Below are positions 46,995-63,920 of a stretch of DNA of 64,000 nt, piece by piece. Origin of the DNA: Bacteroidales bacterium (GTDB lineage: Bacteria; Bacteroidota; Bacteroidia; Bacteroidales; Tenuifilaceae). Within the stretch, counting starts at the first letter, position 1. Every line of letters begins with the position of its first letter. The notes beneath the pieces were generated by a model. That model saw only the letters and a list, made by a program, of their open reading frames with translations. It was not told the origin of the DNA and did no database searches. The position numbers were made by a program, and so were the translations under genes. The DNA lies in the NCBI GenBank assembly GCA_016931855.1, contig JAFGDZ010000048.1:62001-126000 (forward strand), given 5' to 3'.

Positions 46995-48665
46995 TTATGT
47001 TGGTATCCGATAAGGGATAGTTCTGAATATCATTGAGTCGATAGATGTTCCTTCTTTCTTTAGTGTAAATCTTGATTCTATTGGAATAACTGGTTGACCG
47101 TTTAGTATTCGAGGGATATCCATCCTGAAGGTCTGCCCCTCGATGGGCGAGATGTCTGGCTTTATTGTTACCTCAAACCCATTTTTGCGAACCATTTCAT
47201 TGAGTGAATAAAAACTAGTTTTATTATAAACGTTCACAGGGTTAGGATTAGATAAGTAGCTTCCTTTATAGAAGTAAAAAGCAGCGTGAGGTGTTAGCTG
47301 ATTCTCATCGGGATATCTATCATAAAGAATCTTATCCTCAGTTACATTATTATAAAGGTTTACTACTTCTGAGGCTCTTTTGCAAAACATGATTGGGCAA
47401 GGATCAATACCCTCTCCCCCAATCGTAGTTCCATTTATGTTTATTTCCGAATTTACAAGCCTTAGAGAACCAATCCCCGCAAGAGGGAACATCCCCTCTG
47501 TGCTTATTGATATAACGTCTCCTGGCCGCATAAAAGGTGCATGAACATGACGCTCGTAATAGTAAGATAACGAGTTTTCTATTTTAAGTTCAGTCAAATC
47601 TTTAGTGGGTGTGTACGTTAACTCTTTATCGTTATACCTTATGCTTAGGCTAAGCGTGCTTGCATTTACGGGTTTAATTGATAAATCATCAATAGGCTTA
47701 ATCTCTTGTTTTGCCTCCCTTAAGTCTAATATGCTACTCCAGCTTCTAAGGAATACATTTCCTTTCCCATCTGGGAATATTCCTGCCCCAAGCAGTGCCA
47801 TTACACTCTTCAGGAATTCTGCAACCGTGCATGTAGGTACAAGTCTACGAACAAAAAGTTTCCCTTGATCCTGTTCACTTGTGATAATTGTATCTGCAGT
47901 ATTGTGAAGAATAACTATATCATCAATGTTTAACCACGTTGCCCCTGTGGTGTAATCTGAACAATCAAGGGTTAATCCCTGCTGACTAAAGATATACTCT
48001 AGCGCTGTTCTTAGCTTTAAAAAAGGAGTGCACAGGAAACCTTTAGGACATGAGATAGAAATGAGCCTATCTTCGTTTTTTGTATGAAACACTCCGTTTT
48101 CGTATGCCTCTAGCGAAGGTTGGTAAACATTCCCTGCAGTTGGATTTTCTACCATGTACCTGTGCTTATTTAAAGGGATGGGGGTTTCTATGCTGGGGAA
48201 CATCCCAGCAACACAGAACACGGATATTCCATGATCCTCATATGTTCCTTGCATCAGACTTTGCAAGTAATCTATAAGTTCATCAAGAGAGTTCTTTCTT
48301 ATCACGAAATCATTGAAAACATCGGGCATTTTCTTCTCTGCAAAACTGGTGTTAATTCCATCTTCAATGGATAGGGAGCATTCAAAACCTTTTTTACGAT
48401 CAGAGTCAATAACTCTTAGCGTAGCCTCTTTTTGAAAGGCACTAGCCATTATGATAACAGCATGTCCGTTGGATGCATTTTCATCTCTTAATATATCAAT
48501 GCGATTAGGATTATTTAAAAGCCGTGCATTCTTTTCGGTGAAAGGCAGATTGAAAGGAAGGGATGCCCCTGCTGTATTAAGCCCCAGAAAAGCTTTTCTT
48601 ACAAAGGATATTGCAGCATCTAACTTTAAATCGAAGTACTCACCTGTATCCCTATGAACTATCAT
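46995..48665 (-). CDS. Probable phage tail/baseplate protein
   Basis: 556 residues. Opening MIVHRDTGEYFDLKLDAAISFVRKAFLGLNTAGASLPFNLPFTEKNARLLNNPNRI, with a region SPKGF/TALEYIFSQQGLTLD in the middle that resembles early domains of tail hub proteins. The start codon overlaps the stop of the tape measure gene by 4 bp (ATGA), so they are translated together. Position right after the tape measure supports a distal-tail or hub role. No enzymatic motif seen. Confidence 0.55.
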   Translation of the reverse strand: MIVHRDTGEYFDLKLDAAISFVRKAFLGLNTAGASLPFNLPFTEKNARLLNNPNRIDILRDENASNGHAVIIMASAFQKEATLRVIDSDRKKGFECSLSIEDGINTSFAEKKMPDVFNDFVIRKNSLDELIDYLQSLMQGTYEDHGISVFCVAGMFPSIETPIPLNKHRYMVENPTAGNVYQPSLEAYENGVFHTKNEDRLISISCPKGFLCTPFLKLRTALEYIFSQQGLTLDCSDYTTGATWLNIDDIVILHNTADTIITSEQDQGKLFVRRLVPTCTVAEFLKSVMALLGAGIFPDGKGNVFLRSWSSILDLREAKQEIKPIDDLSIKPVNASTLSLSIRYNDKELTYTPTKDLTELKIENSLSYYYERHVHAPFMRPGDVISISTEGMFPLAGIGSLRLVNSEININGTTIGGEGIDPCPIMFCKRASEVVNLYNNVTEDKILYDRYPDENQLTPHAAFYFYKGSYLSNPNPVNVYNKTSFYSLNEMVRKNGFEVTIKPDISPIEGQTFRMDIPRILNGQPVIPIESRFTLKKEGTSIDSMIFRTIPYRIPT

Positions 48666-51600
48666 AATGACAAGTTTTTATTTACCATATCCATTTTCTT
48701 TTCTGCCTCTTTAAGTGAGAAATAGTTAACCTCAGCTTGTATCGGCTCCTCCGAGAGTTTCAAAAGGATATAATGTAGTTGTTGAAGTACGCTTGTTAAT
48801 TCTTTTTCGCTAGAACCTGATTCCTCTTTGCCTGTATATCCTCCTTCTGCAAAACCTTCAGGAAGTGGGTTGGCAGACGTTCGTCTTCTTCTTACTGTTT
48901 CAATTTTCCTTACTAAAGGAATTACCTCGGGGTGTCGCATCTCCTCTTGAGCAACAAAATACTCGCCTCGGTGGTACGGCCTTCCATCATATAGGTAGCC
49001 AGCCACTTCGTATTTATCCCCATCCCCAGTATAGCCACCATCGGCAAAACCTTTGTTTTTAAGGGTTACATTTCCTTCTAGTGCAGGCTTCGGTGGTTTA
49101 GTTTTGCTTGCCGAGCCACTCCCCGGTGATTCCAGCGTAAGGCTTTTTATGCGCTTTCGCTCAGCATTTGCTGCAGATATTTGAGCGGCTCCTGTTACTG
49201 CTAGTAGTGCAGTTAGAGCTGTTGCTGCAATCGAGCCAGCAATTGGCCCAAGCGTGGCTATACTGGTAGCCCATGCACCCATTATTCCCTGTGCTAGGGA
49301 TGCTGAAATTTGCGCAACCTGCATGGCAAAGTTTGCATCGGCATACTTCTTTTGTATCTCAAGAGCCTCTTTTTTCTCTTGGTACTCAAGTTGCGATTTC
49401 TGTTCAGCAAATTGCTCTTGTGAAATGATACCAGCATTTAACTGCTCCTGAAGTGCTGAAAGGCGCTGTGCGTATTCTGCTTCTAGATTGGCTGTTTCGG
49501 CTTGCTGAATAGCTTGTATCGCATTAGACCCTAGGTTGAGAACATTGGATACGCGTTGTGTTAATTCTTGAGCATACTTTATTCTTAATTGCAATTTAGC
49601 TGTTTCGAACTCTTCCTCTGATATCAACTTCTGAGCATATTGCTCTTTTAACAGATCCATTTCCTGATCAAAAAGTTCAGAGGTTGTAATTAGCCCATAC
49701 TGCTGACGCACAGCCATTCGCTCATCCTCATACTTGCGCTCAATGGCCGTTTTGGCTATTTGATACGCTTCATCAGAAAGCAACCGCTGTCCGGTCTCCT
49801 CATTCCTTGCCTCGTACAAGCGGTTAAGGGCTTCTAGTTCCTCCTTTTGTCGCTCGTCAAGTGTTTTAACAAAGACCTGCTTTTCAAGTTCTGCAGCCTT
49901 ATTTAGAAACTCCTTTTGCGCTGCAAGCCGTAACTTTTGAGCCTCCTTATCGGCTTCAGCAATGGCTTTAGCGTTCGCTTTAATTGCCTCTTGCTGTAAC
50001 TCGGCATTCTTAAATTCCGTCTGTTTTATTGCCTCTCCCTGAGCAATGAGTAGCGACAGACGCTCCTGTGCAAAAGAAGCCTCAAGGTTTCTAGTCTTTA
50101 TAGCAAGCAGGGTTTTATCCTTTTCCTGCTCATTCAGCTTTTCGAGGGCAATTTTGTGACCTTCGTCCAGGAGCGCGAGCTGCTCTTCCTGAGTTTTTTT
50201 GAATGCCTCAAGCTGCGCTTTATCAGCCTTATCATTTGCTGCGAGAACGGCATCAAGCAGCTGCTGTTCAAACTGAAGAACCTGTTGCTTCTCAAGCCCT
50301 TTTATCTTTAGCTTTCGGGTAAGGCTTTCTATTGTAGCCTTCTCTACCGCTTCATTGTACTGCTTTTCTGTAATTAAATTGTCGGAAAGGTCTTTCTTTA
50401 GCTTTATTTGAATCTGAAGGAGCGCTTGCTCTTCGCGCTTTATTTGCGCCTCGATAAACTTCTTGTGCTCCTCTTCCTTTTCGCGCTTAATGGCATTAAT
50501 AAGTTCCGCTTCTTGAGACGCTAGCTCGTTAGTACGTTTGTAGTACTCCATTTCGGCCTTGTTGCGTTCCGCTGCAGCCTGAGCCAACTTTTCGTTTGTC
50601 TCAGCATCGTTCTCTGCGCGAGCAGCCTCTGCTTCCATTATCCTGGAGTTTTCATCAGCGATTGCCTTTTTCTCCTCTGCGCGCTTTCGTTCCAACGCCA
50701 TTGCCTCTCTAACCTTTGCGAGCCGTAGTTCTTCTGTGAATAAGTCCTTCTTTTTAGATTCGTTTTTCAGCTTTTCAACCTTTAGCTCAAGAGCAGAATC
50801 TTCTACAAGATTATCCCTTTTGCGTTTTGCCAAAGCCTGTTTAGCCTTTTCTAACTCGATGGCCTCCATGGCCTTCTCGTTAATCTTCTTCATCTCATCC
50901 CCAACAAAGGGAAGGCTTTCGGCCAACTTCATTAGCCATGCTATTGCATCTATTATAAAGTCCAAAAATTTGCCTACCACCTTTTGAACAAGGCTTAGTA
51001 GCCAGTCTAATAATGCACCTAGCGGCGCAAGTATTTGGTTGAACTTGTTGGTAGCCTCTTCGGAACTATTAATTGCCTTTTTGAAGGCCATAAACACTAC
51101 TACAATAGCTGCTAAAATAACACCTACTGGATTTGCTATAATAGCATTAAATGCAGCCTTAAGTCCATAAAACCCTTTTGCTACAAGTCCAACAGGACCA
51201 GGCATTGAGGTTAGCTGCTCGCCAAGGCTTTTGCCAGAGTTTTTCAGATCTCCCATCCGTCCACGTACGGATGATAGCTCTGTTTGCAGCTGAGCGTAAG
51301 CGGCAGGATCTGCTGCTTCGCTGGTGTTATCTAGCTGCTTTTGTAAATCGTTAGCCCTTTTGCGAAGTTGGGTCATGGTCATGTCGCCCACTTGCATGGT
51401 TTTCTCTAACTTGTTAAGAGACTCCTCTTCCTCTTTAATTGCTACACTATTCTCTTTAACCTTATTTGAGTATGCAGCAATTTCGTCGCGAGCGCCTTCG
51501 AAAGTTCCCTTTAGCTCCTTGTACTTGTTAGATGAAGTGTCGCCTGCCTTTTCAAGCGCGACCATGGCTTTCTCTGCCTCCTTCATTTGTTTAGAGGCGT

Positions 51601-51739
51601 CCTTCATCTCCTTGTTTAGCCGGGTGTTCTCGACCTTAAGGGTTCTTATTTTATTAGAAAGCGCATTAACTTCCCCTTGTACGCCTTTTGCGTCGAGGGA
51701 AAGGATCCACTTTATTTGATCGTCCTTTAGCTTTGCCAT
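48662..51739 (-). CDS. Phage tail tape measure protein
   Basis: 1025 residues. Long coiled-coil stretches (residues 20-160 and 290-830, rich in Glu, Lys, Ala and Gln), a hydrophobic central segment with membrane-like helices (GLVAKGFYGLKAAFNAIIANPVGVILAAIVVVFMAFKK, about 183-220), and a second glycine/alanine-rich segment (IMGAWATSIATLGPIAGSIAATALTALLAVTGAAQI, about 825-860). The C-terminal FADGGYTGDG and FAEGGYTGKE motifs are typical of tape measure proteins. These determine tail length and pass to the cell envelope on injection. A long-tailed phage of about 1000 residues would have a tail near 150 nm by the usual 0.15 nm per residue rule. Confidence 0.85.
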   Translation of the reverse strand: MAKLKDDQIKWILSLDAKGVQGEVNALSNKIRTLKVENTRLNKEMKDASKQMKEAEKAMVALEKAGDTSSNKYKELKGTFEGARDEIAAYSNKVKENSVAIKEEEESLNKLEKTMQVGDMTMTQLRKRANDLQKQLDNTSEAADPAAYAQLQTELSSVRGRMGDLKNSGKSLGEQLTSMPGPVGLVAKGFYGLKAAFNAIIANPVGVILAAIVVVFMAFKKAINSSEEATNKFNQILAPLGALLDWLLSLVQKVVGKFLDFIIDAIAWLMKLAESLPFVGDEMKKINEKAMEAIELEKAKQALAKRKRDNLVEDSALELKVEKLKNESKKKDLFTEELRLAKVREAMALERKRAEEKKAIADENSRIMEAEAARAENDAETNEKLAQAAAERNKAEMEYYKRTNELASQEAELINAIKREKEEEHKKFIEAQIKREEQALLQIQIKLKKDLSDNLITEKQYNEAVEKATIESLTRKLKIKGLEKQQVLQFEQQLLDAVLAANDKADKAQLEAFKKTQEEQLALLDEGHKIALEKLNEQEKDKTLLAIKTRNLEASFAQERLSLLIAQGEAIKQTEFKNAELQQEAIKANAKAIAEADKEAQKLRLAAQKEFLNKAAELEKQVFVKTLDERQKEELEALNRLYEARNEETGQRLLSDEAYQIAKTAIERKYEDERMAVRQQYGLITTSELFDQEMDLLKEQYAQKLISEEEFETAKLQLRIKYAQELTQRVSNVLNLGSNAIQAIQQAETANLEAEYAQRLSALQEQLNAGIISQEQFAEQKSQLEYQEKKEALEIQKKYADANFAMQVAQISASLAQGIMGAWATSIATLGPIAGSIAATALTALLAVTGAAQISAANAERKRIKSLTLESPGSGSASKTKPPKPALEGNVTLKNKGFADGGYTGDGDKYEVAGYLYDGRPYHRGEYFVAQEEMRHPEVIPLVRKIETVRRRRTSANPLPEGFAEGGYTGKEESGSSEKELTSVLQQLHYILLKLSEEPIQAEVNYFSLKEAEKKMDMVNKNLSL

Positions 51740-53652: not shown

Positions 53653-55101
53653 CTAGGATGTCTTCTTAAGAGATATTTTATACCCATTTGGCTTATAGGT
53701 GTCCGTCCCATCGCTAAATGACGAGAATATGTATAGGAAGTCGTCTTTAATTATGTGACCAAAATACCCACCCATATGCCCTGTAGTATATTGAATGTCT
53801 TGGCCCCACCAATTTTCTCCTTCAATTGGCGCTGCAATTACTGGGTTTCGAGAGTCCTTTGTCCATGTATTAGTCTCGGAGCTATAAACCATAAGTCCTT
53901 GGCTACGCTTATTGCTAAATAAATTGGCATCATCGTTTCGTAGCCCTGTACCTCCCACAAGGAGGTTTAGTTGATTATTATAAACTATGGGGACTGCAGT
54001 ATCAATATGATTTCCTGTCCAAGACTTATCTGCAGTAGCCTCTGCGATCAGTTGTGATGATTCTACAACATAGTTTATGATATCCGAGTAGATGATATGG
54101 TAAAGTTTCCATCCTTCTACGGCACCAATTCTATGAACGACAAACGCATGGAATTTTCCATTAAAAAAAGTAATACTTCCTTGGTTCTCGTGAGGAACTG
54201 CAATGTTGGGAATTAATAGTTGTGAAGGGGCTTTTGATTTTATATTGAAATTCTCATCGAAAATAATCCAACCAGTAGCCCATCCGTTTGCATTTTTGCC
54301 AATAGCGGCGACTATAAAATCCGTCCCATATTTTACAGGGCTGGACGACAAATATAATCCTGCAATAGAACTCCAAGGGGTGTCAAACTTCTCATAAAGG
54401 AAGTTCTCACCGTTAATCCACGTCCACGTTACTAAATCTTGAGACTGAAGCATTCCTATGCGAAGAATGTTGTCTGAACCCTTACCGTTAGCAATCATTC
54501 TATAGCTTCCATCCGAATGCTTCCAAACAGAATTGCAGTGCAGGTATGTGCTAGACCAAGTTCCTGTTGAACCAAAAAGGGGGGTTCTACTGATAAGCGA
54601 AGCACGAAGGAAAGGATTAAAGAATGCAACGTAATTGCCGTTAACGATTCCCCCTGTATCATCTGTTGCCGTATAACGAATTTTATTATTTGCGAAATCT
54701 ACTTCGGCAATATTACAACTCTTGTAATAGTTGTAGTAAAGCCCCCATTGCTTATCTGGGTCAATGCTTTCCAGTCCTGATACACGAGGTATTGGATTGT
54801 TTAGCGTTAGCCATTTATTGACAGAATCATGCGCAACAACTTGCCACTTCGTCTCTGTGGATAAATTATTCACATTATCATATTCGGAATTACGTATATA
54901 AATCTGAGCAAAAGCATCAGAAAGTTTATCAACTAATGTTACAGCAGGAATATCGCCTCCGCTTTCCGTAAAAAGTTGTTTTAAGCGTTCTATCGAAATG
55001 AAGAATGGTTCTCCATCGGAAGATCGCTCTATTAACAGTTTATCAGAAAGAGCAACTTCTGGAATCTCTGTGAAATCCTCGGAAAATTTTTTTACCTCCA
55101 T
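53653..55101 (-). CDS. Phage protein with five-bladed beta-propeller glycosidase-like fold
   Basis: 482 residues. The first 70 residues form a small attachment-like domain (KFSEDFTEIPEVALSDKLLIERSSDGEPFFISIERLKQLF), a common start for Bacteroidota phage tail appendages. The remainder has the regular pattern of GH43/GH32-type beta-propellers: LHCNSVWKHSDGSYRMIANGKGSDNILRIGMLQSQDLVTWTWINGENFL, TPWSSIAGLYLSSSPVKYGTDFIVAAI, GSITFFNGKFHAFV, ETNTWTKDSRNPVI. 'SKDLVTWT' and 'NPV' motifs are typical of these families. It is probably a receptor-binding or capsule-degrading appendage. Catalytic acids cannot be assigned by eye. Confidence 0.6.
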   Translation of the reverse strand: MEVKKFSEDFTEIPEVALSDKLLIERSSDGEPFFISIERLKQLFTESGGDIPAVTLVDKLSDAFAQIYIRNSEYDNVNNLSTETKWQVVAHDSVNKWLTLNNPIPRVSGLESIDPDKQWGLYYNYYKSCNIAEVDFANNKIRYTATDDTGGIVNGNYVAFFNPFLRASLISRTPLFGSTGTWSSTYLHCNSVWKHSDGSYRMIANGKGSDNILRIGMLQSQDLVTWTWINGENFLYEKFDTPWSSIAGLYLSSSPVKYGTDFIVAAIGKNANGWATGWIIFDENFNIKSKAPSQLLIPNIAVPHENQGSITFFNGKFHAFVVHRIGAVEGWKLYHIIYSDIINYVVESSQLIAEATADKSWTGNHIDTAVPIVYNNQLNLLVGGTGLRNDDANLFSNKRSQGLMVYSSETNTWTKDSRNPVIAAPIEGENWWGQDIQYTTGHMGGYFGHIIKDDFLYIFSSFSDGTDTYKPNGYKISLKKTS

Positions 55102-55200: not shown

Positions 55201-55569
55201 TTAGACCTCTCCTAAGCCAAAATTCTTTGCAAGGGATTCGTTTATGGCCCGTTTTCTCATCTCAGCATTTAGGTTTTTGTAGGCATCCTTTTCACCGTCT
55301 AAGGTTAGGCTATGCAGGGCGATGCTCATTTCGAATTCACCTTCGGAAATACCTTGGGTGTACAGGTTGTAGTAGTAACTACCCTTTTGCTGCAAATTGT
55401 TGAGCAGCTGTGCGCGCTCCTGAAGCGTAAGTCGGGATTCGAGTATTTGTGCCAGTTTATGAAATGGCACCTGCGCTTTTCCGCACATGCGGATTACCTC
55501 GTCTGTGGTAAGGTCATCAAGGCTCCTACTAAGCTTTAGCTCCTCTTTATTCTCTTGATTCTCGTCCAT
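55201..55569 (-). CDS. Phage hypothetical protein
   Basis: 122 residues, acidic, helical (LSRSLDDLTTDEVIRMCGKAQVPFHKLAQILESRL), without membrane or signal segments. The helix-turn-helix-like opening could suggest a small terminase or regulator, but this is weak. It lies between the cytosine methyltransferase gene and a terminator. Confidence 0.5.
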   Translation of the reverse strand: MDENQENKEELKLSRSLDDLTTDEVIRMCGKAQVPFHKLAQILESRLTLQERAQLLNNLQQKGSYYYNLYTQGISEGEFEMSIALHSLTLDGEKDAYKNLNAEMRKRAINESLAKNFGLGEV

Positions 55570-55635: not shown

Positions 55636-56706
55636 CTAACCGCCTTTTTCAAAGTATTGCTTCCTTATTTCTGAAGCAATACTGGCTGTCATTAGAGGTG
55701 GAACGCTCATGCCGCATACGTATCTAACATCGAATCCGCAAAAATCGAAGTCGCGCGGGAAGCTGCTCATTCTAATGTACTCCGTGTCGTTAAGGTTGCG
55801 CACTTCGTTGTAGTAGAGTGAAGTTCCGCTACTGGTTAGCGCTCCTGCAACATCATTGTCATGTAGAATAACCGTGCTGAAAAACGCATTGTACGTTTTC
55901 AAGCCCCTGTACTTAGCATCAGCAAATTTCAGGTTTTGGTCATTGGGGCCAACGTATGGCCACCGAGCCGCTACTGATGGCCACAATGGTTTTGGCTGAC
56001 CAGTTAAACACCCCTTGTCCGCAATCTCACCAAACCGAATGGGCGGCTTATTGAACTCAAGGGAAAGGGGAGGAAAGTTTAGATTTTCCCTTCTAGCCAC
56101 AAAGAATACCCGTTCTCTCGCCTGCGGCACGCCCATGGTTGCGCTGTTAAGCAGGAATATTTGAACGTTGTACCCGGCATCATTTAGCATCTCCACAATT
56201 CTTATTGCGTAGTACTTTGCCTTACCCGCAACAAGACCTGGCACATTCTCAAGAATTGCCACTTTGGGCTGAAGCTTGCGAACGGTGTCGCAGTAAACGA
56301 ATACAAGATCGTCAAGAACCTGTTCTGTTTGTCCCTCTGCAAAGCGTTTCTTGACTCCCCATCCAGCTTCGCGCTTACCACACAAGCTGAATGTTGTGCA
56401 GGGTGGAGAGCCGTCAAGTAAATCGAGGTTGTACAGCTCCTCGGGTAAATCGGTGCGCTTATTGAATAGCCGTATATCCTCTAAGTAGAAGTGCTTAGGG
56501 TTGTGATTTGTGCGGTAAATCTGAGCCATACGGGGATCTATTTCGACCCCGCCCAAGTGTTTATACCCCGCCAGTTTATAGCCCATTGTGCTACCTCCGC
56601 CGCACACAAATGTTCCAAAGGCTGTTAGGTTGCTAGGATTGGGGTAGCCGTCCTTTTTTGTCCAATCCCAGTAGAATTCTCTCATAATCTTTTCTAATAA
56701 GTTCAA
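55636..56706 (-). CDS. Phage C5-cytosine DNA methyltransferase
   Basis: 356 residues. All key C5-MTase motifs are visible: motif I TAFGTFVCGGGSTMGYKLAG (about 29-48, atypical FVCGGGS in place of FAGxGG), motif IV LDGSPPCTTFSLCG (PC, catalytic Cys about 103), motif VI ILENVPGLV (ENV), motif VIII VPQARERVFFVA (QxRxR). The target recognition region lies between motif VIII and motif X. No cognate nuclease gene lies beside it, so it is a solitary phage methyltransferase, probably protecting phage DNA from host restriction. An internal ATG at 56685 (MREF) is an alternative start that would shorten the overlap with the small upstream frame. Confidence 0.88.
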   Translation of the reverse strand: MNLLEKIMREFYWDWTKKDGYPNPSNLTAFGTFVCGGGSTMGYKLAGYKHLGGVEIDPRMAQIYRTNHNPKHFYLEDIRLFNKRTDLPEELYNLDLLDGSPPCTTFSLCGKREAGWGVKKRFAEGQTEQVLDDLVFVYCDTVRKLQPKVAILENVPGLVAGKAKYYAIRIVEMLNDAGYNVQIFLLNSATMGVPQARERVFFVARRENLNFPPLSLEFNKPPIRFGEIADKGCLTGQPKPLWPSVAARWPYVGPNDQNLKFADAKYRGLKTYNAFFSTVILHDNDVAGALTSSGTSLYYNEVRNLNDTEYIRMSSFPRDFDFCGFDVRYVCGMSVPPLMTASIASEIRKQYFEKGG

Positions 56707-56764
56707 TATCTAGTTCTCTGTTAACGAAAGGCCGTTGCCCCTTTCTTGGCTTTAGCTCTCTCAT
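56633..56764 (-). CDS. Possible small phage protein overlapping the methyltransferase start
   Basis: A 43-codon frame (MRELKPRKGQRPFVNRELDI... ending GLDKKGRLPQS). It starts 4 bp after the stop of the adenine methyltransferase gene, which fits coupled translation, and overlaps the cytosine methyltransferase gene by 74 bp in another frame. Charged, helical, no known family. Confidence 0.4.
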   Translation of the reverse strand: MRELKPRKGQRPFVNRELDIELIRKDYERILLGLDKKGRLPQS

Positions 56765-56768
56765 GGCA

Positions 56769-57623
56769 TCATTCATTATTGTTGTGAGGTTTCTTGTAGT
56801 GGTACATTATGTCAACGTACCCAGAGTTGTAGGAGGTGGAGGTAACGTGCGCATTTCGTTTAGCGTTAGCAAACGGATTAGCGGTAGCGGACACGGTGCT
56901 TATCCATTCGCATAGCTCAACGATTTGGCTCTTATTGGAGGTGAAGTAGAAGTAGTTCTGGTTAACTAAAACTTGAAGAACATCGAGGTAATCTTTAAGC
57001 TTCCAGTAGCTGTTTTTTGAGTAAGTGGCCGTGTCAGTACTCAGGTAAGGCGGGTCAACAAGAAAAACCACCTTGTTTAGATTCTTGAATTCGTTAAAAA
57101 CTGCTTTGTAGTCCTTCCTGACTATATCCACACCCAAAAGATATTCTGTGGCTTCGTAGTTGCTTAGCCTTACCTTGTTGTAAAGGGTTTCTTTGCTTAG
57201 AGCCTCAAAATCTGCAGCAAAGTTCATGGAGAATAGCAAGTTGCTGGATATCGTTATGTAATCGACATAACCGCATACATCCGCCTCTTTTACAATGCTT
57301 AAAACATCCGCCCGCAGCTGCCCGCTTATTTGCTGTTTGCGTGGGTAGCCCGCTAAGGCAATGCGGAGCCTGTCTAGCAGCTTATTGGTGCTTTCGATGC
57401 TGTTTAATCGCTGCAAGAAGTTATCGTAATCGTTATACACCACTCTAGCCGATGGGTAAACCGTTTTAACGGTGTGGCTAAGCAGACCGCTACCGCCAAA
57501 CAGATCCACAAAGGTGTGTTTAGCGTCAAAGTCCTTAAGCCCCTCACGAAAGGCTTTTACAAAATTTCGCTTTTGCCCCTGAAATGGAAGGGGCGACTGG
57601 TTGTAAATTTTCATATGTTTCAT
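56769..57623 (-). CDS. Phage D12-class N6-adenine DNA methyltransferase (Dam-like)
   Basis: 284 residues. QSPLPFQGQKRNFVKAFREGL near the N-terminus is the D12-class motif X/'yxGgK' region; VDLFGGSGLLSHTVKTVYP (about 38-56) is motif I (FxGxG); VVFLVDPPYLSTDTATYS (about 185-202) contains the catalytic DPPY. It methylates adenine in a short recognition site. No restriction partner is present. Two in-frame ATGs (MKHMKIYNQ) lie at the start; the second is equally possible. Confidence 0.88.
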   Translation of the reverse strand: MKHMKIYNQSPLPFQGQKRNFVKAFREGLKDFDAKHTFVDLFGGSGLLSHTVKTVYPSARVVYNDYDNFLQRLNSIESTNKLLDRLRIALAGYPRKQQISGQLRADVLSIVKEADVCGYVDYITISSNLLFSMNFAADFEALSKETLYNKVRLSNYEATEYLLGVDIVRKDYKAVFNEFKNLNKVVFLVDPPYLSTDTATYSKNSYWKLKDYLDVLQVLVNQNYFYFTSNKSQIVELCEWISTVSATANPFANAKRNAHVTSTSYNSGYVDIMYHYKKPHNNNE

Positions 57624-57783: not shown

Positions 57784-59361
57784 TTATACTGGTGTCCAGT
57801 GTATGTTTTCCGTTCCTCTAACTAAGCGGTACTCCATATTTTCGCTAACGATATAGACTTTAATCCCAACCTTTCGCTCATTAGCGGGAATTGCATCACG
57901 TTCAATAATAGTCTTAGCAATTCTATAATCCTTATAGTTATCTGGTGTAGGCATTCCATCATAGCAGATGGAGAATCCCTTGGAAAAATCAACATGATTA
58001 GGTGGAGTACTACCTTCAAACCAACCCAATGTAGGAGTTGCTGAATTCTGAATACATCCTCTTAGGTCTATTTGTGTGTTATTTGCTCCAGTTGGGATTT
58101 TAAAAAACCTGCTAATATTCGAGAAATAGTACTTTGTAGTGGCGTTTGAATTAAGCCTGAATCCGCTTGTTGAAACCTCGAATACCCGTGCAAGGTTTTG
58201 CAGTACAAAAGAAGAGGTTGGGTAGTGGGTAAGCGTACAGCCATACGTTGATGCAAATGCATTCGCAAATCCATCTATTAAAAGCATTCCAATATCCACA
58301 TTGCTACGCACCAATTCAATGGCTCGGCCTGCCCCTGTTCCGTAAATCATAAGCAAGCCAATGGCTATGGTATTCGGGGAGAGAAGTTCCAAACACATAG
58401 TTGAGCCAGTTACAGAGGACATTACTAGTACATTTTGCAGTAAGAAATCGCCATTAAGGCGAATTCGCCTATTCCCAACAGGTTCAACCACTACATTCCA
58501 CCATTGGTTTGTAACAAAAGATTGTAGTAGAATATTTCCAGATGAAAGCGGAAACTTAATTTTCAATACTTCGAATCTGATGTTTTGACTCCCCTGAAGA
58601 AATTTAGGAAAGCGTTCCTCATCAAATACTAGCCGTGTATCGTAACTGTGTATCGAGGTGGCGTTTCCTGAGATTAGATTAAGTCCTGTTAGGTCTGTTT
58701 TTGAGTGCTTACCGCAGGGTGTAGTTCCGTTGATGCAAAAGCCATAGTACTGGTTATCCTCATCAAAAATGGTGTTTACCGCTTTTTTAAAGATATTATT
58801 TGGATCAGGCCTTGTTGATGTGGTTGTAAATCCACTTTTTACAAGACTTAGCGTACCCTTGATAATAAGCTGACCATTAAATAGAAAGTTTTCAAGCAGC
58901 AAGCGGCACGTTGAGTCAAAATGATGATCCCCTGACTCAAGTACAATGGTTGTTCTGTGGTTTAGTTGAGATGGAATTATGGATAAGCATTCGGCTAAAC
59001 TCCTAAATGGAAGATTAGGAGTTCCATCCCCTTGGGAAATAGCAGAGGTGTTTACAATATAAACCTTCTCTTCTGTTGTTACCTCTTTATTGAAGTTGCC
59101 ACGTTCAAGTTGCTCAATCCTTTCTGATAATTCGGATAAACAGGCAGCATTCGATCCTATTGCCTGCATCTGAGCGGCTAACTCCTGTTGTATTGCCTCA
59201 ATCTCGGGCGGGTAGTCGAAAGCGTAAACCTTAACCTCTTCTTCCTGCTCATCGATGAGAACGGTTAGCTCCTCGTTCTGGTCGGATGCATCAAGAACGA
59301 TTTCATTCTCGGCATCTATATCAACGTAAAGTTCGCAGTCCATAACCTTAGCTGTTAGCAA
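57784..59361 (-). CDS. Phage tail fibre / tailspike-like protein with beta-helix
   Basis: 525 residues. An N-terminal acidic domain (about 1-60) and short coiled coil (PPEIEAIQQELAAQMQAIGSNAACLSELSERIEQLERG) are followed by a parallel beta-helix beginning QGDGTPNLPFRSLAECLSIIP (about 113-133), the usual 'GDGxxxxPFxTLxxA' start of pectate-lyase-like spikes, and strand repeats to about 460. The last part, RIAKTIIERDAIPANERKVGIKVYIVSENMEYRLV...W, resembles the common C-terminal region of tail-fibre proteins. It overlaps the SufE-like gene by 14 bp. Confidence 0.7.
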   Translation of the reverse strand: MLTAKVMDCELYVDIDAENEIVLDASDQNEELTVLIDEQEEEVKVYAFDYPPEIEAIQQELAAQMQAIGSNAACLSELSERIEQLERGNFNKEVTTEEKVYIVNTSAISQGDGTPNLPFRSLAECLSIIPSQLNHRTTIVLESGDHHFDSTCRLLLENFLFNGQLIIKGTLSLVKSGFTTTSTRPDPNNIFKKAVNTIFDEDNQYYGFCINGTTPCGKHSKTDLTGLNLISGNATSIHSYDTRLVFDEERFPKFLQGSQNIRFEVLKIKFPLSSGNILLQSFVTNQWWNVVVEPVGNRRIRLNGDFLLQNVLVMSSVTGSTMCLELLSPNTIAIGLLMIYGTGAGRAIELVRSNVDIGMLLIDGFANAFASTYGCTLTHYPTSSFVLQNLARVFEVSTSGFRLNSNATTKYYFSNISRFFKIPTGANNTQIDLRGCIQNSATPTLGWFEGSTPPNHVDFSKGFSICYDGMPTPDNYKDYRIAKTIIERDAIPANERKVGIKVYIVSENMEYRLVRGTENIHWTPV

Positions 59362-60079
59362 GGTTATCTACTATTTTCCCTAGGTTGAACTTAACTGACT
59401 TTCGGGAGGGGAGAAGGAAACCATCGAGCCTAGCATTCCCCGGCAAGGTTAGCAGGAGCGTATCCTCTGCAGGAATATCTATTCTGAAGGTGGCCTGTGC
59501 TATTTTTGTTACTCCTACACCCGATTGGCTATCGTACCGCTTAAGCACAACGTTGTTTGAAGTGCTATAGAGCACTAGCTCAATATCCCCGGCAATGGAG
59601 TCATCTACCAGTTCCCCCGATTGTAAGTTGCGGATGGATACTGTTTTTCTGAATGGAGCGCCTCGTACCATTTTGTTCTCTGCATTTACTTCGTTCAACT
59701 TAGAAACAAGCGTTGTTATAAAATCGAGCCTGTTGGCCGTTAGGTTGGCTGTTAGCGATGTTTCTGAGTGAAATTTTACCTCTGTTTGTTTCATCTCGCT
59801 AATGTGGCAGCCATCAAAAATTACGCGGGCAAACTGAATTATACCCGCTGGTATTTGGGCATTGCTATACCCATGTATGTAAACCTTGTCGCAGTCAACA
59901 GTAACTGCGATGTAGGTTTTGCTTGTACAGGTCTGAACCCTGTTTATTGGTACCTTCAGGGAGTCAGGTATTGGGGGTAAGTCTTTAGCCAGGTTAATTA
60001 GGTAGTTGTAGCGCGAAGGCCAATCGGCTAAGGCGTTGAAGTTATCAACTGCTTCCTTCTGTTTTTCTGCTAGTGACAT
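59348..60079 (-). CDS. Phage protein with N-terminal SufE-like domain
   Basis: 243 residues from ATG 60079; an upstream in-frame ATG at 60112 is less likely because the SufE match begins exactly at MSLAEKQ. Residues 1-130 align over the whole length of SufE: LADWPSRYNYLINLAKDLPPIP, NRVQTCTSKTYIAVTVD (Cys51, the persulfide-accepting cysteine of SufE, kept), YSNAQIPAGIIQFARVIFDG, LTANRLDFITTLVSKL. The GCQSQVW consensus is changed to TCTSKTY. Residues 131-243 form a separate beta-rich domain (RKTVSIRNLQSGELVDDSIAGDIELVL...) of unknown family. SufE normally passes sulfur from SufS to SufBCD. No suf gene is nearby; it sits in the structural module, between the 184-residue protein and the fibre gene. 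Confidence 0.75.
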   Translation of the reverse strand: MSLAEKQKEAVDNFNALADWPSRYNYLINLAKDLPPIPDSLKVPINRVQTCTSKTYIAVTVDCDKVYIHGYSNAQIPAGIIQFARVIFDGCHISEMKQTEVKFHSETSLTANLTANRLDFITTLVSKLNEVNAENKMVRGAPFRKTVSIRNLQSGELVDDSIAGDIELVLYSTSNNVVLKRYDSQSGVGVTKIAQATFRIDIPAEDTLLLTLPGNARLDGFLLPSRKSVKFNLGKIVDNLANS

Positions 60080-60624
60080 ACTGTGTTTTTTATTGTGAGC
60101 ATTGCAGTCCACCCACCTCTTCCAAAGAATGATTCGGCATCGATGGGGGAAATGTTAGCGGGGAACTCGAAGCGGCCAAGCGTGCTACATCCCATGTCGT
60201 TTCGTTGATCGTCGCTCATGGTTAGTAGTATTCTATCCAGCACGTTCTCGCAAAGATTAATTACCATTGCCTCGTTAAGGTTGTCATTGTTGCTCATATT
60301 AACCTCAGAGGCAACGGTAATGGCGATATTGCGAGATAGTCCAAACTCACCCACTTCGGGGTTAAACATTTTCTCCCCGTATTCAACAAATAGGATAAGA
60401 CCCTTTGCGTTGCGCACAGAATCCTCTACATACTTTGTGTTTGCTGAGCATATAAAACGGGAAACGTCGGCTATTACGCTACTGTCGGGAATGGAAAGAA
60501 TATCCGATTGAATCTCCGCATACCCTGCTTTAAGGGAGTGCTGTGGCTGTTTAAACTGCTCGGAAAGCACCGCTTTGGGCACAAACTTGGAAAAGTACTT
60601 GAACAGCTGTAAGGTGTAGTCCAT
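60070..60624 (-). CDS. Phage hypothetical protein (structural module)
   Basis: 184 residues, alpha/beta. The end PANISPIDAESFFGRGGWTAMLTIKNTV is a pattern I associate with small structural proteins beside DUF6712-type genes in Bacteroidota phages; a tail-terminator-like role is plausible. It begins 1 bp after the 302-residue protein's stop and ends 10 bp into the SufE-like gene. Confidence 0.5.
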   Translation of the reverse strand: MDYTLQLFKYFSKFVPKAVLSEQFKQPQHSLKAGYAEIQSDILSIPDSSVIADVSRFICSANTKYVEDSVRNAKGLILFVEYGEKMFNPEVGEFGLSRNIAITVASEVNMSNNDNLNEAMVINLCENVLDRILLTMSDDQRNDMGCSTLGRFEFPANISPIDAESFFGRGGWTAMLTIKNTVCH

Positions 60625-60625
60625 C

Positions 60626-61534
60626 TTATGTTAGCCTATTAATTATTGACATTGAGAGCCCTGTTTGCGCGGCAAGCTTATCCACCGTAGCACCCGCAGC
60701 AATAGCCTTAGAAAGGCTGTCCTTAAGCGCCTTTACTTGCGCGGTAAAAAACTCGTCTATTGGGATTTCTGCTGTGTCGGTATAGCCTTCCTTTTTCAGG
60801 TATAGGATGGTTTCGGTCAATCCTAGCCTTATTTTGTCCTCATCGTTGTCGCCCTCTCGGCTAAAAAGAATTCCAAAAACGGGATGGTCCTTGAAAAAGG
60901 ATACTATGCTTGTAAACCAGCATAGTATTCCGAATTTTGCAATGGGGTCAAGCATCGCAACCTTTTTCTCTGATGTTTTGTAAAGCGTTGCGATAAGCTT
61001 ATCGAGGTAGGCAAACTTTGCTTGCTTATCTCCTACGGTTCTGTAAGCGATTACTAGGTCTAAGCATTCAGAGAACTGTTTTGCCGTGATGTTTGTGTTG
61101 ACGGTTAATCCAACTGAGAATTCAGGCCGATGCTTGAATAGTTTTGGAAATGGATTCTGAGTAAAAAGGTACTTGGGTGTTATCTTGAGTCCTTCCAGGC
61201 TAAAAGCAAAGTCTATTTGCTCAGCCAAGCGGATGAGGTTAAACGTAATGTTCTTTTTCTCCTGAATGCGCTTTCGGCGGTATTTCCAGTAGGCGTTTCT
61301 CCTGAACAGGAAGAACAGCCACGCGGCGTGACGCTTTAACCGGCTATCCGTTTTTAACCGGTAACCAGTTATTTTGCATAAAACAGCAAGTTGAAACTCA
61401 AACGGAGTTATCTCATTGTTGAATAGCTGGGCCAGTTTACCTAGGGCAAACTTCATTTGTGAGCGCGTTAGCTCGCTCCAGTTCTCGGGTATCATTATGA
61501 ACCCTTTGTTTAGCTGTATGGTTCTCATGCGCAA
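60626..61534 (-). CDS. Phage hypothetical protein
   Basis: 302 residues, helical, basic, no signal peptide. A basic hydrophobic segment (AWLFFLFRRNAYWKYRRKRIQEKK, about 69-92) and a short SFFKDHPVFGILFSREGD. The C-terminus (ALKDSLSKAIAAGATVDKLAAQTGLSMSIINRL) looks like a small helix-turn-helix. It overlaps the upstream gene by 10 bp. Family not recognised. Confidence 0.5.
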   Translation of the reverse strand: MRMRTIQLNKGFIMIPENWSELTRSQMKFALGKLAQLFNNEITPFEFQLAVLCKITGYRLKTDSRLKRHAAWLFFLFRRNAYWKYRRKRIQEKKNITFNLIRLAEQIDFAFSLEGLKITPKYLFTQNPFPKLFKHRPEFSVGLTVNTNITAKQFSECLDLVIAYRTVGDKQAKFAYLDKLIATLYKTSEKKVAMLDPIAKFGILCWFTSIVSFFKDHPVFGILFSREGDNDEDKIRLGLTETILYLKKEGYTDTAEIPIDEFFTAQVKALKDSLSKAIAAGATVDKLAAQTGLSMSIINRLT

Positions 61535-62409
61535 AAACTGTCGTTCTGGTTAATAGGCGTTGGTTTGTACACCTCGCTGGAGGCTATTCCGCTTTGTTCC
61601 TGTTTTGATAGGGCAGCATCAACGGCTATCCAGTACCCGTCAGCCTTTTTCTGATATACTGCAGATAGCTTTTCACGAATATCGGTTTCGGCCAAGGTGC
61701 TGTTTGCCTTAGTCATTTCGCTATTCATCTCAACCCTGATGGGCTTAGGGAGGGCATGGTAGGCTAAACGCCTTGTTGCCCTTGCTAAAACCTCATAGCA
61801 AATAGCGCGGATTATCTCATCCGTTTTTTGTGGAGCTTTAGACCTCGATAAAACACACTCAGTCCAAACCTCACGGATAATCCACCTAACCTGTAGAATA
61901 AAGTACTCCGAATCAACGCCTACCCACTTCTTAAAGTCTGCAGAGGTGATTGGTATATCTGTTAAATCCTTTTTAGCTGGCGATTGGCTCCATTCTTGGA
62001 GGTTTTCAACCTTATCAAGCGCCTTTACTAGGCGATTGAACCAAAACCAACCATCCTCAATTAGTTTCTCAGTAAGCAAATCCTGCTGATACTTAAAGAT
62101 GGTTGTTTCGTTATCGTTCTTTTTAACCGTAATGCCATCGTTAGATATTTTGGCAATCAGGTATATACCCTGTTCGTATAGGGCAAAATGCAACATGGAG
62201 CGAGAAAGGAAATCCTTTGACAATTCTAGCCCTTGGTCAGTGTTACATATTTTTTCGTAAAGAGCCTCTGAAAGGAGATCCATCATCTCAAGCGCAACCT
62301 TGCTTAACCCGCTCTCAACGTTATCGAACTCAAGCGTTATGTTAGTCCCCGAGATTTTTGACTTCATCTCGGTAGTAAAAGAGAACCTATCGAATGGTAG
62401 CTTTATCAT
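61525..62409 (-). CDS. Phage protein of DUF6712-like type
   Basis: 294 residues. The opening MIKLPFDRFSFTTEMKSKISGTNITLEFDNVESGL and the central LRWIIREVWTECVLSRSKAPQ-type segment fit an alpha-helical structural protein found beside portal genes in Bacteroidota prophages (DUF6712 is my best guess). The start overlaps the portal-like gene by 4 bp (ATGA). Confidence 0.5.
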   Translation of the reverse strand: MIKLPFDRFSFTTEMKSKISGTNITLEFDNVESGLSKVALEMMDLLSEALYEKICNTDQGLELSKDFLSRSMLHFALYEQGIYLIAKISNDGITVKKNDNETTIFKYQQDLLTEKLIEDGWFWFNRLVKALDKVENLQEWSQSPAKKDLTDIPITSADFKKWVGVDSEYFILQVRWIIREVWTECVLSRSKAPQKTDEIIRAICYEVLARATRRLAYHALPKPIRVEMNSEMTKANSTLAETDIREKLSAVYQKKADGYWIAVDAALSKQEQSGIASSEVYKPTPINQNDSFCA

Positions 62410-63920
62410 GGCTTTTTGGGATCAGGTGTTGCTGTGTTTGATAGCCTGTCGGCGGCAGTTGTTTCGTCCATTTTCGACGGTATGTCAATCCAAAATCCTA
62501 AGCGTATGTTTTCCTTTTTTGCGTGAGGAAAATTGAACTGTATAGCCCTATTCAGCTCTTTGGTTATAAAGAACTCATCGAGCGTTAGCGTGGCAACGTA
62601 TATGAGGTAGTTGTAGTACACATCGGAACCCGATTTTGAAATTACGCCATCATTCTCAACATTGGTAATGGATGAGCTAATACCCTTCCCGGCCAGAATT
62701 ACCTGATCGGCTCGTTTATCGTAATCGATAACGGATTTAAAATACTCCTGAAACTTGCCGGGGAACTCCTCAAACTTCCAGCCATCGTCTCCCCATTTGG
62801 TAGTTGCGTATAGCTTACCCTGATTCTTGCCTTCACCGCTCATCAGCTCTGTAATGCGTCTTAGCTCACCAGAGATAAGATCGTCCATCATCGTTTCAAA
62901 GAAACGGTAAGGTTTACCAGCATCATCAACAAGTTTTACGCCTTTGTATTCAACTTGTATGGGAGTCTCAGGGTCTCCCATTAGGTTACTCTGACAGATG
63001 TTTTCGAGAATCTGTTTTTGCGACAAGTACCATGTGCCAGGTATAATTACGTGCACGTGCGCATTGAGTGCATTTCTAAGGTAACTGTTAAGGTATCTGG
63101 GAGAAAGGTTAGAAGCCTTTATCCACTCGTATAGACCTTTAAACCAGTCGTTGTAAGCGTACACCCACTTACTGAATGTTTTATCTATGTTGAACGCTAT
63201 AGATGAAGCGTGCTTATACGGATTTAGCGGCTCAAAACGGGGAAAAACTTGGTACTCGTAGGCGGATATGTTTATCCAATCGCCTACAATTACATATTTA
63301 CAATCCTCGTTCTTTATCCTACGGTGAAGAAAGTCTCCTTTTGCAGCGAGTCGCGCCTCATCGCTTCCAACGTAGGTTAGAGCAGCAATAGAACCCGGTT
63401 CATTTAACCTACGAGCCCTAGTTAAATGGTACTTACTTACGCAGGTTTTAACATGGTAGTAATCGGTAATAAGGTTTTTAAGGTATTCCCAGTAATGAGG
63501 GAATCCTTTCTCCTCCCAAGACTCCAGCCATGCCTGTATTTGCTCGTCCTCCACGGGCATTCTTAAACGGCGCTTCTTAAAGCCTTCTCCGTCAACAACC
63601 TCCTTGTAAAGGCGTGGCCCCCTACCAAAAAGGAATCGTACCTGCTTTTCGATAACTTCAGGTAGCAGCTTATTCTCTGAGATTATGGAAAAAACCTCTT
63701 GGGGGTATAGATTGTGGCCATCGCCCCAAAGAGGAACCCTGAATTCTCCTAGGGAGACACAGGCGTTCTCTGAGGCGTACCTCTTGTAAATGGACTTGTA
63801 CTCGCTAGATACTAACTCCTCTCGGGAGGTGATATCCTGCACCTCGAAGGTTAAAACGCCTACTTTTGGAGCAATGGCAAAGCCTCTATTGCCTCCTTGT
63901 ATCTCTACTTTAGTCTCCAT
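62406..63920 (-). CDS. Probable phage portal protein
   Basis: 504 residues. RVPLWGDGHNLYPQEVFSIISENKLLPEVIEKQVRFLFGRGPRLY (about 63-107) corresponds to the portal N-terminal 'y.....N..p..l..li..s..l..ii..k...l.g.G' region. The central helix-rich stretch and the C-terminal ILAGKGISSSITNVENDGVISKSGSDVYYNYLIYVATLTLDEFFITKELNRAI (about 414-466) resemble the stem and crown region of portals. First gene of the visible phage unit, 80 bp from the window edge. Portal proteins form the dodecameric DNA gate of the capsid. Confidence 0.55.
   Translation of the reverse strand: METKVEIQGGNRGFAIAPKVGVLTFEVQDITSREELVSSEYKSIYKRYASENACVSLGEFRVPLWGDGHNLYPQEVFSIISENKLLPEVIEKQVRFLFGRGPRLYKEVVDGEGFKKRRLRMPVEDEQIQAWLESWEEKGFPHYWEYLKNLITDYYHVKTCVSKYHLTRARRLNEPGSIAALTYVGSDEARLAAKGDFLHRRIKNEDCKYVIVGDWINISAYEYQVFPRFEPLNPYKHASSIAFNIDKTFSKWVYAYNDWFKGLYEWIKASNLSPRYLNSYLRNALNAHVHVIIPGTWYLSQKQILENICQSNLMGDPETPIQVEYKGVKLVDDAGKPYRFFETMMDDLISGELRRITELMSGEGKNQGKLYATTKWGDDGWKFEEFPGKFQEYFKSVIDYDKRADQVILAGKGISSSITNVENDGVISKSGSDVYYNYLIYVATLTLDEFFITKELNRAIQFNFPHAKKENIRLGFWIDIPSKMDETTAADRLSNTATPDPKKP

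Follow-up and report, generated by a model that had tools for sequence, protein, structure and literature searches.

A prophage tail module in the window (the whole stretch of 64,000 nucleotides that was analyzed) codes for a protein of 243 amino acids, and its N-terminal half is probably a phage-encoded SufE transpersulfurase that would draw on the sulfur of the host SufS late in infection. Our results establish the homology to SufE, the SufE fold, the invariance of Cys51, Arg119 and Trp20, the grouping of the phage copies as a single branch of the tree, the fixed place of the gene and its dispensability. The usual role of SufE is that of a housekeeping partner to SufS, and a phage version with the catalytic residues kept and the SufS-facing ones changed makes it possible to study directly, by standard SufS assays, whether phages take over sulfur transfer and for what reason. 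The features of the module are the following.

59348..60079, minus strand: fused gene, SufE domain plus C-terminal fiber-associated domain, 243 aa (ATG at 60079; translation, PF02657 E = 1.9e-23)
59675..60079, minus strand: SufE domain, residues 1-135 (profile, fold, alignment)
59927-59929, minus strand: Cys51 codon
59729-59731, minus strand: Arg117 codon (E. coli R119)
59351..59671, minus strand: C-terminal domain, residues 137-243 (45% identity to L033:9824-10141)
59669-59671, minus strand: internal ATG (M137), corresponding to the start of the stand-alone homolog of the C-terminal domain
60070..60624, minus strand: g184, tail-terminator-like, directly upstream of SufE (gene order, fold)
57784..59343, minus strand: tail fiber, downstream neighbor (first ~64 residues 57% identical to the fiber of the C61 prophage)
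60626..61534, minus strand: g302, conserved module gene (gene-order comparison)
61525..62409, minus strand: g294, conserved module gene in the position of the adaptor (gene-order comparison)
62406..63920, minus strand: portal protein, the query for finding the phage clade
51739..52194, minus strand: neck-type protein, closing the variable slot on the downstream side (homologs annotated as neck)
48662..51739, minus strand: tape measure protein (homologs annotated as tail tape measure)

The preliminary description had read the N-terminal half as a SufE homolog, and profile, E. coli chain and fold matches agree on this. In a Pfam profile search, residues 12-129 match PF02657 (SufE) with E = 1.9e-23 and 82.9 bits, three times the cut-off of 27, while nine other phage SufEs score 73-93 bits; the E. 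coli SufE and CsdE chains match the fused protein at about 4e-10. The similarity is far beyond chance. In an AlphaFold2 (AF2) model built with 13 relatives, residues 1-133 are modeled confidently (block pLDDT 83-96), and the best PDB matches of this part by Foldseek are E. coli SufE (1mzg, E = 5e-9) and the SufS-SufE complex (8vbs, E = 2e-8), with TM-scores by target length of 0.73-0.79. The NCBI equivalog NF006792 does not discriminate here: the window SufE misses its cut-off (58.9 bits against 160), but an ordinary SufE of Bacteroidota is likewise below it (102 bits).

Using the portal gene of the window module we retrieved nine contigs from IMG/VR, all but one with a SufE homolog, and a SufE profile search added more; relatives were also found in the bacterial genomes of Porphyromonadaceae bacterium H1 and G168. 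In the portal tree the window phage and 13 others form one clade (support 98/99), and SufE is present in 13 of these 14 phages. The exception, L064, is the sister of the window phage (support 99/99) and has no SufE match across its whole 46-kb record, so the phage sufE is accessory. Seven relatives more distant than L064 also have the tail module without SufE. The Porphyromonas phages, the Duneviridae and Bacteroides phage BT-TP2 have parts of the module in common with the clade, and the gene was not found in these either. A second phage SufE copy in bacterium H1 (L099:1761-2142) is apparently frameshifted, and a copy like it in L132 adjoins a truncated g184, a remnant prophage.

Gene order is the same in every SufE-bearing contig (portal, g294, g302, g184, SufE) and continues, where the contig extends, with variable genes, then neck, then tape measure. 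In 9 of 11 phages the start of SufE and the stop of g184 share four bases (ATGA), and in the window phage g184 overlaps the ATG of the fused gene by 10 bases. As to the neighbors given in the preliminary description, the fiber downstream stands, and the "probable tail protein" upstream (g184) can be sharpened to tail-terminator-like by its fold: its AF2 model (pLDDT 87.6) resembles the tail terminators of lambda, Mu and T4 with weak E-values, many terminators being among the top Foldseek matches for the gpU-like fold but at E of 0.03-0.2. Another small protein of the module, g122 (122 aa, window 55201-55569), is kept in nearly all clade members, where it usually lies in the variable region that precedes the neck gene.

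Several features would fit a structural or assembly role, in which the SufE fold would assist the tail terminator or neck as a chaperone or adaptor and carry out no sulfur chemistry: sufE is retained across the clade, in every SufE phage it has a fixed place and overlaps the tail-terminator-like gene translationally, and in the window phage it is fused to a fiber-associated domain. However, L064 and the seven more distant relatives have the same module without SufE, and Cys51 and Arg119, needless for an adaptor, are invariant, so that we give this role a low probability; in particular, the lack of the gene in the closest relative speaks against its being structurally essential.

Four SufE regions, marked by W20, C51, D74 and R119, contact SufS, and among SufE-like folds only C51 and R119 are universally conserved (PMC11408855). 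The acceptor Cys51 of the window SufE lies, as described before, in the changed motif TCTSKTY. Its conservation among phage homologs had been the point at issue, and we found it, together with R119, in 14/14 phage SufEs compared; W20, S53 and G80 are equally invariant, and an additional phage SufE, L127, retains C, N74 and R. These five residues, the fold and the length are shared with the SufE/CsdE family (PF02657). The phage clade differs from that family at position 74, which is Asn in all 14 phage SufEs versus Asp in 45 of 47 cellular ones (D74N), at position 55, which is always Thr (V55T), and by the replacements W56Y/F/C, D72W/Q/Y and K79S/G/Q. It also differs in context, with sufE in a tail-gene operon without suf genes nearby and fused C-terminally in one phage. 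Family membership stands despite D74N, since only C51 and R119 are named as universal (PMC11408855).

Retention of both catalytic residues across such a divergent group points to sulfur transfer, which is thereby favored over the virion adaptor, the other of the two readings put forward earlier. Coordinated changes at the SufS face and the pocket point, in turn, to an altered affinity or another recipient: as active-loop residues have changed together, the affinity for SufS or the acceptor may not be those of cellular SufE. The same changes could suit a decoy, that is, a remodeled SufE that would bind host SufS tightly and block or divert it, for example against competing phages or by slowing Fe-S repair. 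All phage copies carry Asn at SufS-contact position 74, where D74R raises the affinity for SufS tenfold in E. coli (PMC11408855), and neighboring pocket residues are changed too. Yet R119, which lies on the mobile loop, is invariant. It is required for release and turnover (R119A SufE takes the persulfide without turnover; PMC11408855), and a decoy would arise most simply through its loss. We consider this explanation quite unlikely.

For the transpersulfurase that we prefer, the sequence of events would be as follows. The phage SufE would be made with the late tail genes, would dock on the host cysteine desulfurase SufS via the W20 and D/N74 regions, and would take the persulfide onto Cys51 and release it by means of Arg119. 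The phage could thus draw on or sustain host sulfur mobilization, for Fe-S assembly or for another acceptor.

An Fe-S or sulfur target among the virion proteins was considered and rejected, as the tail proteins have no conserved Cys quartet. The tail tip protein gpL of lambda carries an Fe-S cluster (PMC10721106) and is a comparable case of a known Fe-S protein in a phage tail; here, in contrast, without the quartet no virion protein stands out as an Fe-S target. Among the SufE-bearing phages, Cys is absent from the neck protein and from the tape measure (apart from a single residue in L091, whose copy is incomplete), and no conserved quartet is seen in the protein that follows the tape measure. 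Single Cys residues are conserved across the clade in g184, g302, g294 and the portal, but they do not track SufE, because L064 has them without it. Nucleic acid thiolation, which had been suggested as an example of sulfur use, found no support: a PAPS-reductase-type gene is carried by some of these phages (records L064, L072, L087 and L089), but its distribution does not follow that of SufE. A link of SufE to a PAPS-reductase/ParB pair was rejected too, as L064 has the genes without SufE and no such genes turned up in several records of SufE phages, part of which are fragments. In the window's genome such a pair (ParB-like and PAPS-reductase/DUF3440) lies beside a tyrosine integrase at L037:18388-19991 (G000:C78:144388-145991), apparently in the same prophage. 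We found no attachment-site repeat of useful length for the window prophage.

In an unrooted tree drawn at the midpoint, with 47 cell-type sequences and E. coli SufE included, the phage SufEs fall together as a single group (support 100/100). The simplest history would be a single gain in the ancestor of the clade, after which the gene was inherited vertically and lost at least once. The window SufE sits on a long branch and is the most diverged for its portal similarity, with a mean SufE identity of 35% versus 44% between other phages, so this copy may be under relaxed selection. For the window phage only, the SufE half could then be a decaying passenger, kept merely through its joining to the fiber-associated domain. 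Besides the divergence, this would agree with the loss of the gene in sister phage L064 and with the frameshift in the second copy of bacterium H1, but Cys51, Arg119, Trp20 and the open frame are intact in the window copy, and we regard such decay as unlikely.

The two halves of the fused protein have different histories. As the preliminary description held, the second domain is a separate one: residues 137-243 are 45% identical to a free-standing protein of 105 aa (L033:9824-10141), both starting with MVRG. This homolog belongs to a second prophage of the same genome (G000:C61), where it stands directly before a fiber, and the N-terminus of that fiber (~64 residues) is 57% identical to that of the window fiber, so the C-terminal domain goes with the fiber. 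A profile of the domain found two copies only among 393 genomes of the order, both in the window's genome; we found no relative in Pfam or the PDB and a weak match to phrog_1084 (E = 0.008) in PHROGs, and the AF2 model of this half is unreliable (pLDDT under 50). No relatives of the window fiber N-terminus were found in IMG/VR. The two prophages also share closely related glycosidase-like tail proteins of 482 and 527 aa (window 53653-55101 and L033:8241-9824), and glycosidase-like protein, C-terminal domain and fiber N-terminus make up a tail-fiber cassette common to otherwise different phages.

The idea of a two-domain phage family did not hold, since we saw the fused form in the window phage only. 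We therefore do not regard the fusion as an architecture conserved in relatives, given that every other phage SufE is a separate protein of ~130 residues and that the C-terminal domain, among 393 genomes of the order, is confined to one. The fusion is a secondary event, and it was the fusion that had made the finding look odd. The fiber cassette would have come to lie directly downstream of sufE, after which the unrelated fiber-associated gene would have fused in frame, possibly by one small change at the end of sufE. Start codon M137 survives in the fused frame, and the C-terminal domain may still be made alone from this internal ATG. The junction, seen in a single assembly, could also be an assembly error. 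Elsewhere in the order, a SufE match within an open frame of 532 aa (G060:C177:11224-11604) is possibly another SufE fusion.

The absence of suf genes near the fused gene was borne out: the host assembly carries sufB, sufC, sufD and sufS in one cluster on another contig. Host SufS has the motif HPYDTG, in which the Tyr has been linked to SufE-type partners (PMC11408855). In the host assembly, which comprises 82 contigs and is 98% complete, the prophage SufE gives the only PF02657 match; elsewhere in the family, a normal SufE copy is present in 22 of the 26 other genomes. These two observations, a SufE-partner type of SufS and no other SufE, would be expected if the prophage copy were the sole SufE of the host and now served the cell. 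We consider this very improbable, as the late tail genes of prophages are expected to stay silent in the lysogen, and bacterium H1 has its own cellular SufE alongside the phage ones, which means that the phage sufE is not in general a stand-in for the host gene. Moreover, sufT, a neighbor of sufE in many relatives, was likewise not found in the host assembly, so an assembly gap is a fair explanation for the missing sufE; a synteny search with a flanking gene for a lost host sufE returned 15 paralogs.

Viral sufE without sufS has already been reported as an auxiliary metabolic gene from the ETNP oxygen minimum zone (PMC8940887). That report is a gene detection in viromes, whereas here the gene belongs to one clade, with a fixed place and clade-specific residues. 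A few SufE matches were found among 50,697 GenBank phage records, all closer to cellular SufE and none of the window clade. MW462191, MT836179 and OQ572403 code for members of the family that are nearer to cellular SufE (34-70% to a Bacteroidota SufE) than to the phage group, and the sufE of MW462191 has no annotated tail genes around it. Prophages of Porphyromonas gingivalis and Duneviridae (Ingelinevirus, Labanvirus) share a homologous portal and tail module with its gene order kept, but their whole records lack SufE and other cargo occupies the slot. We found no SufE family in PHROGs, and as the GenBank phage set lacks members of the clade as well, its sufE genes are easily missed by phage annotation. 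Thus viral sufE as an auxiliary metabolic gene is known, and the clade-fixed, remodeled, tail-module form appears new in the literature that we searched, which takes in only a minority of subscription journals. The SufE-bearing group is rare among Bacteroidota phages, and the constant retention of the two catalytic residues suggests that these phages tap the host sulfur supply. Tentatively, one could go further and propose that the clade has long kept a remodeled transpersulfurase as a late gene that redirects SufS sulfur to a phage purpose, by a mechanism undescribed in phages, with the carrier tethered to a fiber-associated domain in one member; we see this as possible but doubtful.

Two other genes of the window, between the fiber and g122 (55636-57623), look like DNA methyltransferases, one Dcm-like and the other Dam-like. 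These phages repeatedly carry a small protein, apparently secreted, that has the shared motif VKDENGK..FNSM.DALNF and variants (L064:13482-13844, L096:12735-13226, L101:8251-8652); it also occurs next to rho, toward the far end of the prophage.
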